Positions 1-64,000 of a DNA stretch of 64,000 nucleotides are shown piece by piece; within the stretch, counting starts at the first letter, position 1; each line of letters opens with the position of its first letter. The translations under genes were made by a program, and so were the position numbers. The notes beneath the pieces are model-generated. The model was not told the origin of the DNA and did no database searches. It saw only the letters and a program-made list of their open reading frames with translations. The stretch comes from Microbispora bryophytorum (GTDB lineage: Bacteria > Actinomycetota > Actinomycetes > Streptosporangiales > Streptosporangiaceae). Where the stretch lies: positions 124,001-188,000 of the forward strand of contig NZ_VIRL01000003.1 of assembly GCF_006874465.1 (NCBI RefSeq), written 5' to 3'.

Positions 1-1150
1 GCACCCGCAGCCGGACCCGGAAACCGTGCTCGGTCTCGCCTGCCTCCAGCGTGCCGCCCAGGAGTTCGGCGCGTTCGCGCATACCCACGAGACCGTATCC
101 TCCTCCCGGCGTCCCCGGCGCGTCACTCGGGGGGTTGACGACCTCCAGCTCGCACGTCCGGTCGCCGAATCTCAGCCGTACGGTGGCGGGGGAGCCCGGA
201 GCGTGCCGCCGCACGTTGGTGACGGCCTCCTGGGCGGTGCGGATCATCGCCAGCTCGGTTTCGGGCGGCAGCCGGCGTTCGTGACCGGAGACGACGACGG
301 CGCACTCCCTGCCGGTCGCGTCGCGGAACTCCCCGGCGAGCGCGTCCAGTGCGGCGGGCAGCGGCTGGGCGTCGTCGCGGAGCGCGGCGACGGCTCTGCG
401 TGCCTCGTCGAGGCCCTGCTTGGCCAGCTCACGGGCGCGTTCGACCCGGTCGAGGGCCTCCTGCGACCGGTCGGCGCGCAGCAGCAGCCGGGCGCCCTCC
501 AGATGCACGATCTGCGCCGACAGGGAGTGCGCGAGGATGTCGTGGATCTCCCTGGCGATCCGGGCGCGCTCGGCCAGCACGGCCTCGCCCGCCTGGGCGG
601 CGGTGGCGGCCCTGCGCTGCTTGATGGCGTAGGCGACCGCGAAGACCACGCAGATCGAGACGCACAGGCTGAGGTCGCGCTGCTGCGCCTCGGGGGAGAC
701 CGGCGGCAGCAGTCCCATGGCGCTCGATCCCAGGCCCGCCAGGGCCAGCAGCAGGAGCGGCAGCGACCATCTCAGCGGATGCCGTACGGCCGCGGCCCCA
801 ACGGCGAACATGAGCACGGCGACGGCCGGGCTGCTGTCGGAGACCATGTCGAGGGCGATGGCCGCCACGATGGTGAGCCCGATGAGGACGGCCTCCGCCG
901 GTCCGTCGTTCCAGCGTCCCGGCAGGATCGGCCGCAGCCGGATGACGACCATGAGGGACAGCGTCACGGCGATCGCGGCGGTCAGCGCGGTGATGGCGAG
1001 CCTATCGCCGGTCAGGCCGAACCCCGGCGGGCCGGTCGCCTGCCCGCCGACCAGCAGGGCGATCACGGCCAGCCGCAGGAACGCGCCGGCGATCGCGTTC
1101 CTGCGGCTGGACTCTCGGCCGGCCTGGACATATCCGTCACGACTGGGCAC
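1..1150 (-). CDS. NarL-family sensor histidine kinase, 3' end cut by window edge
   Basis: This is a membrane histidine kinase of the DesK/NarL type, expected to sense at the membrane and phosphorylate a LuxR-type response regulator. About five hydrophobic segments occupy residues 20-160. The dimerisation helix carries REIHDILAHSL with phospho-acceptor His at about residue 203. The ATPase N-box QEAVTNVRRH has its Asn near residue 312, and a glycine box (GYGLVGMRER) follows. The start is GTG at 1150, because an in-frame TAA lies at 1160-1162. That TAA is the stop of the upstream membrane protein gene, so the two genes are probably co-transcribed 9 bases apart. The last residues and any partner regulator lie outside the window. 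Confidence 0.9.
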   Translation of the reverse strand, partial: MPSRDGYVQAGRESSRRNAIAGAFLRLAVIALLVGGQATGPPGFGLTGDRLAITALTAAIAVTLSLMVVIRLRPILPGRWNDGPAEAVLIGLTIVAAIALDMVSDSSPAVAVLMFAVGAAAVRHPLRWSLPLLLLALAGLGSSAMGLLPPVSPEAQQRDLSLCVSICVVFAVAYAIKQRRAATAAQAGEAVLAERARIAREIHDILAHSLSAQIVHLEGARLLLRADRSQEALDRVERARELAKQGLDEARRAVAALRDDAQPLPAALDALAGEFRDATGRECAVVVSGHERRLPPETELAMIRTAQEAVTNVRRHAPGSPATVRLRFGDRTCELEVVNPPSDAPGTPGGGYGLVGMRERAELLGGTLEAGETEHGFRVRLRV

Positions 1151-2573: not shown

Positions 2574-4817
2574 GTGTCCACCCGAGCCGCCACTCATCCG
2601 TTGCTCGACGGCCTCAACCCGCAACAGCGGGACGCCGTCATCCACCAGGGCAGTCCGCTCCTGATCGTCGCCGGGGCCGGCTCCGGGAAGACCAGGGTGC
2701 TGACGCACCGCATCGCCTACCTGCTGGCGGAGCGTGACGTCCAGCCGGGGGAGATCCTCGCGATCACCTTCACCAACAAGGCCGCCCGGGAGATGAAGGA
2801 GCGGGTCGACAAGCTCATCGGGCCGCGGTCCAGGGCCATGTGGGTCATGACGTTCCACAGCGCCTGCGTGCGGATCCTGCGGCGCGAGGCGAAGCGGCTG
2901 GGTTTCTCCTCCAGCTTCTCGATCTACGACCAGGCCGACTCCCAGCGGCTCATGGCGATGGTCTGCCGTGAGCTCGATCTCGACCCCAAGCGCTACCCCC
3001 CGCGGTCCTTCTCGGCCCAGGTCAGCAACTTCAAGAACGAGCTGATCGACTACGAGACGGCGGCCGACCGGGCCTCGACCCATCTGGAGCGGACGCTCGC
3101 CGAGGCGTACCGCACCTACCAGCGGCGGCTCACCGAGGCCGGCGCGATGGACTTCGACGACCTGATCATGCTGACGGTCACGCTGCTCCAGCTCTTCCCC
3201 GACGTGGCCGAGCACTACCGGCGGCGGTTCCGGCACGTGATGGTCGACGAGTACCAGGACACCAACCACGCGCAGTACACGCTGATCCGCGAGCTGGTCG
3301 GGCGGCCCGAGGTGCGCACCGTCGACGGCGACGTGGTGCGGGAGGGCGTCGAGCCCTCCGAGCTGGTGGTCGTCGGCGACGCCGACCAGTCGATCTACGC
3401 CTTCCGCGGCGCGACGATCCGCAACATCCTGGAGTTCGAGCGCGACTATCCGGACGCGCGGACGATCCTGCTGGAGCAGAACTACCGCTCCACCCAGACG
3501 ATTCTGAACGCCGCCAACTCGGTCATCTCTCGCAACGAGGGCCGCAAGCCGAAGAACCTGTGGTCCGACCAGGGCGCGGGCGCCAAGATCATCGGCTATG
3601 CGGCCGACAACGAGCACGACGAGGCCATGTTCGTCGCGCAGGAGGTCGACCGGCTCGGCGACGACCACGGCGTCGCCCCCGGCCAGGTGGCGATCTTCTA
3701 CCGCACGAACGCCGCCTCCCGCGTGTTCGAGGAGATCTTCATCCGCACGGGCCTGCCGTACAAGGTCGTGGGCGGGGTGCGGTTCTACGAGCGCAAGGAG
3801 GTCAAGGACCTGCTCGCCTACCTGCGGGTCCTGGCCAACCCGAGCGACACGGTGTCGCTGCGGCGCATCCTCAACGTGCCCAAGCGCGGCATCGGCGACC
3901 GCGCCGAGGCGATGGTCGAGGCGTTCGCCAACCGGGAGCGCATCGCCTTCTGGGATGCGCTGCGCCGGGCCGACGAGGCGCCGGGGGTGGCCACCCGCTC
4001 GCTGAACGCGATCCGTGACTTCGTCGCGTTACTCGACGAGTTGCGCGCCAAGGAGCTTCCGCTGTCCGACCTGGCGGAGGAGGTGCTGAGCTCCACCGGC
4101 TACCGGACGGAGCTGGAGACCTCGGGCGACCCGCAGGACGAGAGCCGGCTGGAGAACCTCAACGAGCTGATCTCGGTGGCCGCCGAGTTCGAGGAGGCGA
4201 ACCCGGAGGGCACGCTCGTCGACTTCCTGGAGCAGGTCTCGCTGGTCGCCGACGCCGACCAGATCCCCGAGGGCGACGACAGCGGCGGCGTGGTCACGCT
4301 GATGACCCTGCACACCGCCAAGGGCCTGGAGTTCCCCGTGGTCTTCCTCACGGGCATGGAGGACGGCGTCTTCCCGCACATGCGCTCGCTGAGCGACCCG
4401 AAGGAGCTGGAGGAGGAGCGCAGGCTGGCGTACGTCGGCATCACCCGGGCCAAGGAACGGCTCTACCTGTCCAGGTCGGCGGTCCGCTCGGCGTGGGGCG
4501 CGCCGTCGTTCAACCCCGCCTCGCGCTTCCTGTCCGAGGTGCCGGGCGACCTGGTCGAGTGGCGCGGCGACCCGGGCAAGACCGCCTGGTCCGCCGCGAC
4601 CTCCCGCCCGGCGGCCCGTACGGCTCCCGCGCAGAAGACGGGTGGCCGGCAGGTCCCGAACCTGTCGCCGGGCGACCGGGTCACCCACGACACGTTCGGG
4701 CTCGGCACCGTGGTGGCCGTGGACGGTCAGGCCGAGAAGACGCGCGTGAAGATCGACTTCGGCAGTGAGGGCGAGAAGACCCTGCTGCTCGCCTACGCCC
4801 CGATCGACAAGCTCTGA
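2574..4817 (+). CDS. pcrA: ATP-dependent DNA helicase PcrA (UvrD/Rep family)
   Basis: This superfamily 1A 3'-5' helicase acts in nucleotide excision repair, replication restart and RNA polymerase release. Walker A GAGSGKT lies near residue 35 and the Walker B region DEYQDTN near residue 225. GDADQSIYAFRGA, LEQNYRST, TAKGLEFPVVFLTGMEDG and VGITRAKERLYL follow in the expected order. The C-terminus (GDRVTHDTFGLGTVVAV onwards) is the Tudor-like RNA polymerase-binding domain of PcrA. From GTG 2574 the protein has 747 residues, normal for the family. An in-frame ATG at 2544 would add ten residues. The open frame continues upstream to 2085, but that part is antisense to the deacetylase gene and does not resemble PcrA. 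Confidence 0.93.
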   Translation: MSTRAATHPLLDGLNPQQRDAVIHQGSPLLIVAGAGSGKTRVLTHRIAYLLAERDVQPGEILAITFTNKAAREMKERVDKLIGPRSRAMWVMTFHSACVRILRREAKRLGFSSSFSIYDQADSQRLMAMVCRELDLDPKRYPPRSFSAQVSNFKNELIDYETAADRASTHLERTLAEAYRTYQRRLTEAGAMDFDDLIMLTVTLLQLFPDVAEHYRRRFRHVMVDEYQDTNHAQYTLIRELVGRPEVRTVDGDVVREGVEPSELVVVGDADQSIYAFRGATIRNILEFERDYPDARTILLEQNYRSTQTILNAANSVISRNEGRKPKNLWSDQGAGAKIIGYAADNEHDEAMFVAQEVDRLGDDHGVAPGQVAIFYRTNAASRVFEEIFIRTGLPYKVVGGVRFYERKEVKDLLAYLRVLANPSDTVSLRRILNVPKRGIGDRAEAMVEAFANRERIAFWDALRRADEAPGVATRSLNAIRDFVALLDELRAKELPLSDLAEEVLSSTGYRTELETSGDPQDESRLENLNELISVAAEFEEANPEGTLVDFLEQVSLVADADQIPEGDDSGGVVTLMTLHTAKGLEFPVVFLTGMEDGVFPHMRSLSDPKELEEERRLAYVGITRAKERLYLSRSAVRSAWGAPSFNPASRFLSEVPGDLVEWRGDPGKTAWSAATSRPAARTAPAQKTGGRQVPNLSPGDRVTHDTFGLGTVVAVDGQAEKTRVKIDFGSEGEKTLLLAYAPIDKL

Positions 4818-4900
4818 GCCGCTGCTGCCCGGCGCCCGTGCTCCTGGGGTGTACGAGGCGGCGGCGATTGGTTGGGCGGCCGGGCGGGAAACCCGCTCCG

Positions 4901-4933
4901 GCCGCCACCTGTGCCCGGCCCCCGGGTGGCGGT
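4901..4933. terminator. Hairpin between convergent pcrA and secreted-protein gene
   Basis: CCGCCACC at 4902-4909 pairs with GGTGGCGG at 4925-4932, extendable to 10 bp with G-T pairs around a 14-base loop. It lies between two converging genes and has no T-tract, which is common for actinomycete terminators. It may serve both directions. Confidence 0.5.
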
Positions 4934-5018
4934 CACCCTGGAACCGGCCGCCTCTGCCTCACACCTCGCGGGGGGCTCGGCAGCGCGGTGTCACCCGTGC
5001 GCGGGTGGCCGACGCGAC

Positions 5019-5906
5019 TCAGTCGCCCAGATCGATGGTGTCCGGCATGTCGGGCACGCTGCCGAGAAGGTCGGCCATGCTCGCGACCTGGCTCTTCGGC
5101 GGCGCCTTGACCGTGACCCTCGAACCCCAGCCGACGAACGAGACGGCGCTGCTCGCGTCGACCTCCATGGTCATCTTCTCGTACTTGAGTTTCAGCGTCA
5201 GGGTCGTCTGGACCTTCCGTATGAGCTGGTCGCCGCCCACCCACATCTTCCAGGCGACCACGGTCTTGGCCTCGGAGGCGGTCAGGCCCTTCTTCAGGCT
5301 CGGCTCAACCGCGGCGAGCTGCTTCAGCGTGATCGCGCCCCGGTAGAGCGTGGTCCTCGCGCCGTTGACGACGCCGCCCGCGCCCTTGGCCTTCGTGGTC
5401 GCGAGCACCGCCTTCAGGGTGCGCGCGTCCAGCGGGTTGACGGGCACGCCGTTGCTCCCCAGCACGTCGGCCGGGTTTTTCCCGGGCGTGCGCAGCCACT
5501 TCTTGCCTTCGGGGAACAGGCTGGAGAAGACGCCGCCGGTGACGTAGGCCGTACGGCCGACGGTGATGGTCCGGGTGGGCTTGTCGGCGCCCTCGAGATC
5601 CTCGTCGAGCAGGGCGCCGTAATTGATTCTCCCCGTCACGTCGGATCCGGTGACACCGGAGCGGCCGAACGCGAGGCGGCCCTTGGCGCTGGACTTGACC
5701 GTGGCAATGCCACCGACGTCGATCGTCTCCGAGGACGTGAACCGGACGCCACGGCCGGGGACGAATGCCTTTTTGAGCGCGGCCGTGGGGTCCAGGGGCC
5801 GGGCCTGGCTGTCGGTGGTGGTGTGAGCGTGCGCGGGGGCGGCGACGGCGGGCGCCACGAGCGCGGCCGTCGCGGCGCACGCCAGCGCCATGAGTGCTCG
5901 CTTCAA
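5019..5906 (-). CDS. Secreted LolA/LppX-like protein of unknown function
   Basis: This exported protein has 295 residues. A classical signal peptide (basic start, hydrophobic core, cleavage near APAHA) covers residues 1-27. The rest has the alternating polar and hydrophobic pattern of LppX/LprG-type beta-sheet proteins that hold lipids, but it has no lipobox Cys, so it would be released or only loosely held. The start is taken as TTG at 5906 because GGGAGG sits 6 bases upstream; a longer frame to 5996 lacks a ribosome site. It is monocistronic and converges on pcrA. The family assignment is a weak resemblance, while the secretion signal is clear. Confidence 0.6.
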   Translation of the reverse strand: MKRALMALACAATAALVAPAVAAPAHAHTTTDSQARPLDPTAALKKAFVPGRGVRFTSSETIDVGGIATVKSSAKGRLAFGRSGVTGSDVTGRINYGALLDEDLEGADKPTRTITVGRTAYVTGGVFSSLFPEGKKWLRTPGKNPADVLGSNGVPVNPLDARTLKAVLATTKAKGAGGVVNGARTTLYRGAITLKQLAAVEPSLKKGLTASEAKTVVAWKMWVGGDQLIRKVQTTLTLKLKYEKMTMEVDASSAVSFVGWGSRVTVKAPPKSQVASMADLLGSVPDMPDTIDLGD

Positions 5907-60737: not shown

Positions 60738-61315
60738 AGCCGCAGGTCTTCCGGTCGAAGGTGGCCTGGCTCCTCGGCTGGGCCTGGATGCTGTTCGCCG
60801 CCTGGAACGTGTGGGACCTGACGGCCCACGGCCGTCTGCCCAGCGCGCTGATCGCGGGCGCGGTGCTCGGCGTCATCACGGCGCTGGTCTTCGTGATGGC
60901 GCTGCGGCCCGCCGTCGTCGCCGAGGAGGGCGGCGTCCGGGTGCGCAACGTGTTCAGGAACGCCTACATCCCGTGGAACGGCGTGGACGACGTGTCCGTG
61001 ACCAACGCCATCATGATCGCGTCCGGGGACACCACCGTGCGCTGCTGGGCGCCCCAGGCGACGGCCCGTGAGCGGGTCAGGGCCGCCGGGCGGGCCGCGA
61101 AGGCGGCCAGGTCGGCGAACAAGGCCGAGCGGGCGGCGGCCGAGGCCGTCGGTGCCCGCACCCATGCCGACTGGGTGGCCGACCAGCTCACGGAGATGAG
61201 CCGGTCCCGCCGGGAGAGCTCCTCCGGCGAGACCGGGGTCACCTGGTCGCCGTCCGCCCTGGCGGCCGTCGCCGCCGCGCTCGCCCTGGTCGTGGCCGCC
61301 TTCGCCCTCTCCTGA
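60734..61315 (+). CDS. PH-domain membrane protein
   Basis: This 193-residue protein has two N-terminal membrane helices (about 8-55). A short bacterial PH-like region (about 60-110, [28 protein letters not shown]) carries the VRNVF-IPW pattern of this family. An Ala/Arg-rich coiled segment (115-150) follows, and a last helix is at the C-terminus. ATG 60734 overlaps the adenosine deaminase stop by four bases, so translation is coupled, although no functional link is obvious. Role unknown. Confidence 0.8.
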
Positions 61316-61383: not shown

Positions 61384-63561
61384 GTGCGTCTGGCGCGAGT
61401 GATCGTCGTCGTTGTGCTCGCCGCGCTCGCGAGCGTCTACGTGATCGCGGGTGCGCCGATCGCGCTGGCGGTGTTCGGCGTGCAGGTTCTCTACCTGCTC
61501 AAGCTCAGGACGTGGTGGTTGCTCGCCGCGCAGGCCGTCCTCGTCTACACGGCGAGCCTCGCCGGCGGCGTCTCCACCGGGATCCTGGGATTCCTGGCCG
61601 GTTCGCTGCTGCTGACCCCTGCCCATCGTGATACCGCGCGCGTGCTCGCGCCGTTCGTGGTGGCGAGCGCGGCACTGATCGACGCCGCCCGCGGCGGGGC
61701 GACGGCCGACGCGACGATCACCGTGATACTGGTCTCGCTTGTCGTCTTCGGCCTCACCCGGCTCGTGGAGCGCGCGGGCGAGATGCACGCCGCCAGGCTC
61801 TCGCTGGCCGCCGCGGCCGTGGCCGCTGAGCGGCTGCGCCTGGCGGCCGAGCTGAACGACGGCCTCGGACGGAGCCTGGAGGTCATCGTCGAAGGCGGCC
61901 GCCGCGCGCTCGCGGAGCCGGACGGCGCGGCCGAGGTGCTGGCCTCGGTGACCGCGACCGCGCGTGCGGCACTGGCCGACGCCCGCGCCGCCTCCGCGAA
62001 CTACCGCGCCACCTCCCTCGCTCCCGAGTTGGTCACGGCGCGGGCGATGCTCGACGCCGCGGGAATCGCCGTCGAGGTGCGCGGCGGCCACACCGAGCCG
62101 CTCGGCCCCGGCGGGGCGCTGCTGGCGAACGTGCTGCGGGAGGCCGTCACCGACGTCGTACGGCGGGGCACCCCCCGGCTGTGCGTCATCGAGACGAGCG
62201 AGCAGGGAGACGAGCGGGGAAACACCGTGCGGTTGCGGGTCGTCGACGACGGCCACCGCACCGCCGAGGGCCCCGACTTCGACGGGCTCCGGCTGGAGGA
62301 GGCGGGCGGCACCCTGACCACCGGTCTGTCCCCCTCCGGACGTTTCGTGGTGGAGGCGACGCTTCCTCGCGGCCCTTCCACCGAGGCGGCCCCCAGTGAG
62401 GCGGGCGCTGGTGAGGCGGGCGCTGGTGGGACGGGCGCCGGCGACGCTCACGCTCCGGAATTCCCGGCGGGCCGAAGGCGGCGATGGCCCCTGCCGAAGC
62501 TCGCCCACGACGCGTCGTACGCGATGTCGGTCGCGGTGCTCGCGGCCGTCCTCGTGGGCTTCAGCGCCAAGACGCTGCTCCAGCTCGACGGCCCCCTCGC
62601 GATCCCGGCCGCGGCGTGCCTCGCCGTGATCGTCGTCATGCAGCTCCGCTCCGTCAACGGGCGTCACATGGTGGCGCTCACCGTGATGGCGGTGCTCACG
62701 TACGCGCCCATCCCGGTCTTCGGACCCGTCTGGCTCGGAGCGGCGGGCTTCCTCGCCGGGCCGGTCCTGCTCGCGTTTCCATGGCGGGCCGCGTGGCCGA
62801 CGACGGCGGCGATCGTGGCGAGCGTCGCCGCGGCCGGAATGCTGTTCGGCCTGCCGGCCCCCGTCCTCGCCAACAGCACGCTCAGCGCGCTCGTCACCGG
62901 GCTGGTGGTCTACGCCCTGCTCCGCCTGGCCCAGATCGTGAAGGAGCTCCAGGCCGCGAGGGAGAGCCTGGCCCGCTCCGCGATCGTCGAGGAGCGCCTG
63001 CGCGCCGCCCGCGACCTGCACGACCTGCTCGGGCACTCGCTGGCCGCGATCCTCCTCACCTGTGAGCTGGCCCGCCGCCTGAAGTGCCCGCGCGAGCGGA
63101 TCGAGGAGATCGCCGCCATGGCGGAGGGCGCGCGGGCGGACCTGCGCTCGGTGTCGGGCGAGCAACGGGAGCTGTCCCTGGCGGCCGAGGTGGAGTCGGC
63201 GCGCACGGTGCTGTCGGCCGCCGGGATCCGGGTGACCGTGGAGCCGGTCGAGCTGAACCTGCCCGCCGAGGTCGAGACCGTGCTGGGCACCGTGCTCAGG
63301 GAGGCCGTGACGAACGTGCTCAGGCACAGCGAGGCCCGGCACTGCGCGATCACGATGCGCGCCGACGAGCGTGGGCTGCGGCTGCGGGTGCGCAACGACG
63401 GGGTGAGTGCGGGGAAGACGCGGCGGGGGTCGTCCGGCATCGGCAACCTGACCACCCGCCTCGCCGCTCTGGACGGCCGGTTGGCCTCGCACGTCGACGG
63501 CGACCGGTTCACGCTGGACGCCTGCGTGCCGCACCGCGCGCCGGTGCCCGCCCAGATGTAG
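61384..63561 (+). CDS. Tandem-fused NarL-type histidine kinase, first module degenerate
   Basis: This 725-residue protein is built as two kinases in a row. Each half has about four or five membrane helices, a HisKA_3-type helix and an ATPase domain: half one is residues 1-330 and half two is 375-725. In half two the phospho-site is ARDLHDLLGHSL (His about 546), the N-box is REAVTNVLRHS (Asn about 644) and a glycine box follows. In half one the aligned site reads AAELNDGLGRSL (Asn about 158), the N-box reads REAVTDVV (Asp about 257), and the glycine box is lost. It is therefore a pseudokinase joined to an active kinase. The start is GTG 61384. The convergent response regulator next door is the likely partner. 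Confidence 0.9.
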   Translation: MRLARVIVVVVLAALASVYVIAGAPIALAVFGVQVLYLLKLRTWWLLAAQAVLVYTASLAGGVSTGILGFLAGSLLLTPAHRDTARVLAPFVVASAALIDAARGGATADATITVILVSLVVFGLTRLVERAGEMHAARLSLAAAAVAAERLRLAAELNDGLGRSLEVIVEGGRRALAEPDGAAEVLASVTATARAALADARAASANYRATSLAPELVTARAMLDAAGIAVEVRGGHTEPLGPGGALLANVLREAVTDVVRRGTPRLCVIETSEQGDERGNTVRLRVVDDGHRTAEGPDFDGLRLEEAGGTLTTGLSPSGRFVVEATLPRGPSTEAAPSEAGAGEAGAGGTGAGDAHAPEFPAGRRRRWPLPKLAHDASYAMSVAVLAAVLVGFSAKTLLQLDGPLAIPAAACLAVIVVMQLRSVNGRHMVALTVMAVLTYAPIPVFGPVWLGAAGFLAGPVLLAFPWRAAWPTTAAIVASVAAAGMLFGLPAPVLANSTLSALVTGLVVYALLRLAQIVKELQAARESLARSAIVEERLRAARDLHDLLGHSLAAILLTCELARRLKCPRERIEEIAAMAEGARADLRSVSGEQRELSLAAEVESARTVLSAAGIRVTVEPVELNLPAEVETVLGTVLREAVTNVLRHSEARHCAITMRADERGLRLRVRNDGVSAGKTRRGSSGIGNLTTRLAALDGRLASHVDGDRFTLDACVPHRAPVPAQM

Positions 63562-63585: not shown

Positions 63586-64000
63586 CTAGATCCAGCCGGC
63601 CTCGGTGGCGATGCGCACGGCGTCGGTCCGGTTGCGGGCGTTGAGCTTGGTGACGATCACGGTGAGGTAGTTGCGCACGGTGCCCGCGGCCAGGTGGAGC
63701 CGCGCGGCGATGTCCGTGGCGTCCGCGCCGGCGGCGGCCAGGCGGAGCACGTCGGCCTCGCGCGGGGTGAGCGGGTTGTCCGCCAGGTCCCAGGCGGTGA
63801 CCGCGAGCGAGGGGTCGAGCACCCGTTCCCCGGCCGCGACCTTGCGGATGGCGGTCACCAGTTCGTCCGGCGGCGCCGTCTTGAGCACGTATCCGGCGAC
63901 ACCCGAGCCGAGAGCGCGGCGCAGGTGCCCCGGCTTGCCGTACGCCGTCAGCATCAGAGCGCGGCAGGCGGGCAGGCGCGTGCGGAGCTCGGCGGCGGCC
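63586..64000 (-). CDS. NarL/LuxR-type response regulator, 5' end outside window
   Basis: This is the C-terminal 137 residues of a response regulator. The tail of the receiver domain includes the conserved Lys region GYVLKTAPPDELVTAIRKVAAGE. The LuxR helix-turn-helix (about the last 65 residues) reads LTPREADVLRLAAAGADATDIAARLHLAAGTVRNYLTVIVTKL. The phospho-acceptor Asp lies beyond the window edge. It converges on the fused kinase gene with 24 bases between them and is probably its partner. Confidence 0.92.
   Translation of the reverse strand, partial: AAAELRTRLPACRALMLTAYGKPGHLRRALGSGVAGYVLKTAPPDELVTAIRKVAAGERVLDPSLAVTAWDLADNPLTPREADVLRLAAAGADATDIAARLHLAAGTVRNYLTVIVTKLNARNRTDAVRIATEAGWI

Follow-up and report, generated by a model that had tools for sequence, protein, structure and literature searches.

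Why should a sensor kinase carry a second, degenerate kinase within the same polypeptide? The question is raised by a gene near the end of a 64,000-nucleotide stretch of the Microbispora bryophytorum genome (contig NZ_VIRL01000003.1, positions 124,001 to 188,000), which we call the window and whose own numbering is used below unless stated otherwise. The gene is a single unbroken frame of 725 amino acids on the plus strand, with a GTG start at 61384 and a stop codon ending at 63561. A preliminary description had read it as two fused histidine kinases, the first of them a pseudokinase. On balance, we modestly favour a single-chain asymmetric sensor kinase, in which a live second half (half B) has a pseudokinase first half (half A) as its built-in partner. 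Each half comprises a membrane region, a dimerization and histidine phosphotransfer (DHp) domain or its degenerate counterpart, and a catalytic and ATP-binding (CA) domain:

61384..63561, plus strand: tandem DesK-like sensor kinase, 725 amino acids (open frame; two HisKA_3 matches)
61384..61791, plus strand: half A membrane region, residues 1-136 (six helices in the AlphaFold2 model)
61795..62007, plus strand: half A pseudo-DHp, residues 138-208 (N158 at the place of the His, R163 at the phosphatase place)
62017..62367, plus strand: half A pseudo-CA, residues 212-328 (D257 for the N-box Asn; D-box D289 kept; without G2 motif or G2 helix)
62368..62499, plus strand: linker between the halves, residues 329-372 (ratio of nonsynonymous to synonymous substitution, dN/dS, about 0.94; predicted local distance difference test, pLDDT, below 50 at residues 331-376)
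62500..62928, plus strand: half B membrane region, residues 373-515 (six helices in the model; hydropathy peaks)
62932..63171, plus strand: half B DHp, residues 517-596 (phospho-acceptor H546 at 63019-63021, HDLLGH motif)
63172..63531, plus strand: half B CA domain, residues 597-716 (N644, D672, G685, G687)

The helix count of the half A membrane region is unsure, as a hydropathy scan at 1.6 gave only about three peaks.

That two kinases share one chain, as first proposed, is borne out by several comparisons. HisKA_3 matches the whole chain twice, with residues 537-595 as the best stretch. When the halves were scanned apart, half B scored 36.9 bits and half A 23.5 bits (residues 149-211), just below the Pfam cut-off of 24 bits; in a six-frame search of the genome, half A reached 26.3 bits and passed it. 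BLASTP aligned the halves to each other with 113 of 314 columns identical (36%, E 3e-29), and both found DesK by sequence in the PDB (half A, 1.6e-09; half B, 8.2e-21). The genome holds 58 HisKA_3 matches, among which the listed coordinates place no other pair in one frame.

The halves do differ at the catalytic residues named in the preliminary description: N158 stands where half B has H546, D257 where it has N644, and the G2 box is gone from half A. Half B carries the full set (H546, N644, and G685 and G687 of the G2 box), and its H546-D547 pair is the His-then-Asp signature of HisKA_3 kinases (DesK/NarX, HPK7). Searching genomes sampled at genus, family and order level, with either half A or the full-length chain as query, we gathered related tandem chains; 85 distinct ones form a clade within the same bacterial family, no two of them more than 98.5% alike in both halves. 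The His-Asp pair is present in 85/85 half Bs of this clade, as are the N, D and G2 boxes of the GHKL CA domain, so that H, N, D and G are all kept throughout. Half A retains the D box only: among 86 half As, none has the His (one shows a gap) or the N-box Asn, all have the D-box Asp, and 76 have the Gly that follows it. Phospho-acceptor and N-box Asn are missing together in 85/85 clade chains. These residue counts, and the covariation and identity values below, omit L041, L105, L167, L174, L183-L186, L082, L199 and L089, which are of another tandem type, lack the first CA domain or leave the frame in the second half; the half profiles were built without 14 loci. Among all 96 collected first halves, the His place holds Asn in 47, Ser in 31, Asp and His in six each, Glu in two, and Gln, Arg, Gly or a gap in one each, and the six with His all belong to other tandem types. 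Of the 95 second halves collected, 94 have His; only L199 does not, and it leaves the frame.

Half A might be decaying sequence, or the fusion an assembly artefact of two neighbouring genes. Two adjacent unfused kinases do occur in one genome (G022, L162/L180), and the second half leaves the frame in L089 and L199; we take the latter two as breaks or sequence errors. However, the same fusion recurs in 85 distinct chains, and across eight Microbispora sequences dN/dS is 0.275 for half A and 0.327 for half B, with 0.140 for the DHp of half A (DHp-A), 0.134 for that of half B (DHp-B) and 0.94 for the linker. Half A is therefore under purifying selection in Microbispora, like half B. A continuous full chain is present in 8 of 15 genomes of the genus sample, with a remnant in a ninth; in two genomes (G002, G007) one TAG falls within the match, yet the frame reaches query residue 723 of 725, which places the stop at the extreme end. 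Continuous frames and substitution ratios together rule out a frameshift or decay of half A, and the explanation by decay or artefact, already contradicted by these counts, is practically negligible. Of 250 genomes sampled from the family, 73 gave a match with an E value of 1e-60 or lower, although at least three of these matches are other things (the G009 remnant, a twin tandem in G042 and a single kinase in G089). Outside the family, across 394 genomes of a class sample, half A matched best at 3.4e-30, in a frame with only one kinase half found.

Having a kinase fold, lost catalytic residues and persisting selection, half A is, as judged from sequence, a maintained pseudokinase, and would be enzymatically inactive. 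Conservation is not uniform along the chain. Among 47 chains less than 85% identical in half B, the CA domain of half A (CA-A) is as conserved as that of half B (CA-B; mean pairwise identity 0.600 and 0.578), while DHp-A is less conserved than DHp-B (0.599 and 0.711). The well-conserved CA-A, with its invariant D-box Asp and the Gly kept in 76 of 86 half As, could suggest that it senses nucleotide without turnover and gates half B by the level of ATP or ADP; loss of the N-box Asn and the G2 box speaks against such a sensor, which we regard as quite improbable.

What half A has lost on its surface bears on a further possibility. The HDxxxH sequence is an alternative form of the phosphatase motif HDxxxQ. 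At the fifth position after the His (H+5), half B has His551, and so do 82 of the 85 half Bs (Ser in 2, Gln in 1), which retain the motif; half A has Arg163, and Arg occupies this place in 61/85 half As. The corresponding residue of DesK is the phosphatase Gln193 of HDxxxQ, and Leu200 of DesK, at H+12, inserts into a pocket of DesR as a docking knob (PMC5231405). This knob is Leu in 84 half Bs and Ile in one; among half As the position holds Ala (24), Glu (19), Arg (17), Asp (7), Gly (5), or Gln, Val and Lys (3 each), with four gaps and Leu in 0/81. H+8 and H+5 have also changed and, judged by sequence, half A has lost the DesK-type knob. In the first DHp helix, half A keeps the core places H-1, H+3, H+4 and H+7, and not the surface places; its DHp hydropathy follows that of half B in register only. 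In a rival reading, half A would bind the regulator, or its phosphorylated form, and feed back on half B, as does DivL of Caulobacter, a pseudokinase described as having become a sensor of a phosphorylated regulator (PMC4211667). The loss of the H+12 knob disfavours such regulator sensing, and we consider it improbable.

Having lost its chemistry and docking knob and kept its membrane region and helix-bundle core, half A points to a structural and allosteric role. It probably acts as a partner of half B, with DHp-A pairing with DHp-B inside the chain. The retained helix-bundle core is one hint of this pairing. The AlphaFold model of the full chain, of modest confidence, gives indirect hints of A-B packing only: some whole-kinase structures align to it from DHp-A to CA-B (4biu_B, 133..720, root-mean-square deviation (rmsd) 5.0; 6qrj, 144..724, rmsd 5.6; 4bix_B, 133..719, rmsd 7.8), these ranges being end points only. 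Covariation yielded a weak, clade-driven and unspecific signal. The chain could instead form an ordinary two-chain dimer, A with A and B with B, in which half A serves as an extra membrane sensor and scaffold and no A:B bundle exists. Half B keeps its whole catalytic set (85/85), the low-confidence linker would permit A:A and B:B contacts, and DesK itself is described as a dimer of two chains (PMC5231405). By itself, however, this arrangement gives no reason for CA-A to be as conserved as CA-B, and the hints of A-B packing, weak as they are, run against it; we hold it to be possible and rather unlikely. If the internal A:B pair we prefer is obligate, half B can work in cis only. If half B works in trans, the A:B pair would instead represent an off state, with chains having to contact each other through their B halves.

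The relatives of this chain allow the question of origin to be addressed. In trees of chosen representatives (71 and 55 rows), half As form one clade and half Bs another, each with support 100, which fits one fusion inherited whole. A and B may have been born by duplication inside the chain (p of the approximately unbiased (AU) test 0.49, 55 rows). A single origin of all tandem kinases, tested as one clade of all 31 B halves, was rejected with the same rows (p-AU 0.0007). Independence of this clade from the lineage of L183 and L186 is favoured by the starred tree branches, with AU tests of 0.066 and 0.116 (55 rows) and of 0.221 and 0.434 (45 rows).

Homologues with two intact halves had been named as evidence that would undo the pseudokinase assignment. 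Such chains exist, but among those collected only outside this clade: L105 (G042 C13, about 2789-5323), with H, N and G2 kept in both halves, whose 78% identity indicates a recent in-chain duplication, and L174, from another family, which also keeps H, N and G2 in both. In L167, L184 and L206, both halves have H and N, but the second has Ala in place of the G2 Gly. In class II tandems (L041, L185, L200-L205, L215), the first half consists of a membrane region and a DHp, lacks a CA domain and is followed by a full kinase. At the His place of that first half, several have Glu, Asp, Arg or Gln, and L185, L200 and L202 have His. L186 likewise lacks the first CA domain, and the first half of L183 keeps His with Ser for the N-box Asn. 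In each stable tandem case (L089 and L199, with their broken second halves, set aside), the half that looks degenerate is the first, a pattern rather than a census given that half A or the whole chain served as query. The adjacent unfused kinases of G022 (C44) are tree sisters with His and N-box Asn in both and Ala at the G2 Gly in one; they could show what a fusion precursor looks like. In L210 (G017 C401), a pseudo first half and a complete half lie in two different overlapping frames, which are either coupled genes or a break. It is conceivable, although we would put it somewhat short of even, that there are DesK-type kinases in which an obligate internal live/dead pair replaces the homodimer, an arrangement established in one clade, with other tandems moving towards it as their first half loses its chemistry.

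Two further features of the window flank the kinase gene:

60743..61315, plus strand: bPH_6 bacterial PH-domain protein, upstream of the kinase (domain match)
63586..64000, minus strand: C-terminal part of a convergent NarL/DesR-type response regulator, 204 amino acids in all (Response_reg and GerE)

As with DesK and DesR, a NarL-type regulator with Response_reg and GerE domains thus adjoins the kinase. Beyond it, the order is kinase, regulator on the opposite strand, ATPase and permease of an ATP-binding cassette (ABC) transporter. At 72 clade loci (those among L065-L130 and L180-L199 that span 6.5 kb or more, with L105, L130 and L181-L184 excluded), a convergent NarL-type regulator was found in 67, an ABC gene in 65, and the regulator with an ABC ATPase downstream in 61. 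The 11 incomplete loci include L074, which ends in the regulator gene, and L089, which ends with the contig; L098 and L129 have neither regulator nor ABC gene in place. By Pfam and NCBIfam the transporter is nearest to LolD/MacB-like ATPases and FtsX-type permeases, with scores below the NCBIfam cut-offs. Within the genus, a close permease (91-100% identity) occurs in the same eight genomes as the full kinase. Of the seven others, G001 and G013 have distant permease matches (about 1e-64) and five have none at 1e-60. In G009 (C1; L130, 3049-7518), a DDE_5 transposase gene and a helix-turn-helix gene separate 131 remaining codons of the kinase from the final 124 codons of the permease. At eleven loci that have a related transporter and not this kinase, fetched on one side only, neither this regulator nor the kinase profiles gave a match, except for one of 19.5 bits at a slice edge. 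Kinase, convergent NarL-type regulator and MacB/FtsX-like ABC transporter form a conserved module.

The gap between the regulator and transporter genes contains a palindrome, CATGA-N5-TCATG. In 61 such gaps (our own and 60 others; median 76 bp), it is exact in 31, with one mismatch in 20, two in 9 and three in 1; letter shuffles of the gaps came within one mismatch in 0.1%. The copy of this genome lies at 188221-188235 of the contig (G000:C71), 221 bases past the end of the window, between the regulator and ABC ATPase genes; three further places in the genome make four, compared with one for the reversed control. The palindrome is likely the regulator's site. In a tentative scheme, CA-B would phosphorylate H546 and the phosphate would pass to the convergent regulator, which most likely controls the divergent transporter through the intervening palindrome. 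The membrane region of half A may be a second sensor and DHp-A most likely packs on DHp-B of the same chain, taking the place that another identical subunit would have; a signal at the A membrane region would then set half B as kinase or phosphatase.

How does this arrangement compare to known systems? Both halves resemble DesK of Bacillus subtilis (HisKA_3/HPK7) in fold and sequence, and the multi-pass membrane region and NarL-type partner are shared. DesK differs in having one kinase per chain and dimerizing from two equal chains, whereas the present chain joins one degenerate copy to one complete copy. DivL, too, combines a kinase fold with a replaced His and is reported to lack autokinase activity (PMC4211667). 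DivL differs in being a stand-alone protein, with Tyr instead of the His, that binds a regulator; the pseudokinase studied here is part of the same chain as its partner and no longer has the DesK-type knob for docking. In RetS-GacS, one kinase is controlled through another, and the two are encoded by separate genes; structure 7n0e, among the structures listed, is presumably this pair. TodS has two kinase modules in one chain. The kinase chain described here gave no Response_reg match at E 0.1, and so has no TodS-type receiver domain. Two-transmitter kinases such as TodS and other hybrids share the two modules, and a 2010 survey reports receiver domains in virtually all of them (96.2%) and two transmitters in only 2 of 15,704 non-hybrid kinases (PMC3018481); our chain, in contrast, has no receiver and one degenerate module. 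A two-transmitter "TT" fusion is mentioned for myxobacteria (PMC4603909). Searches of one open-licence library turned up no paper describing tandem DesK kinases in which one half is dead. The precedents are a separate pseudokinase, DivL, and the two-transmitter kinases.

The need for two working halves, and asymmetry in the switch between kinase and phosphatase, are usually studied with engineered mixed dimers. The chain described here offers a natural, stable mixed pair in which the two halves can be mutated independently; relatives that are unfused, twin or half-degenerate provide natural controls. Tandem non-hybrid kinases, rare in the 2010 survey (2/15,704; PMC3018481), make up a conserved clade within a single actinobacterial family and, if our interpretation is true, this clade would hold a naturally evolved, covalently asymmetric histidine kinase.
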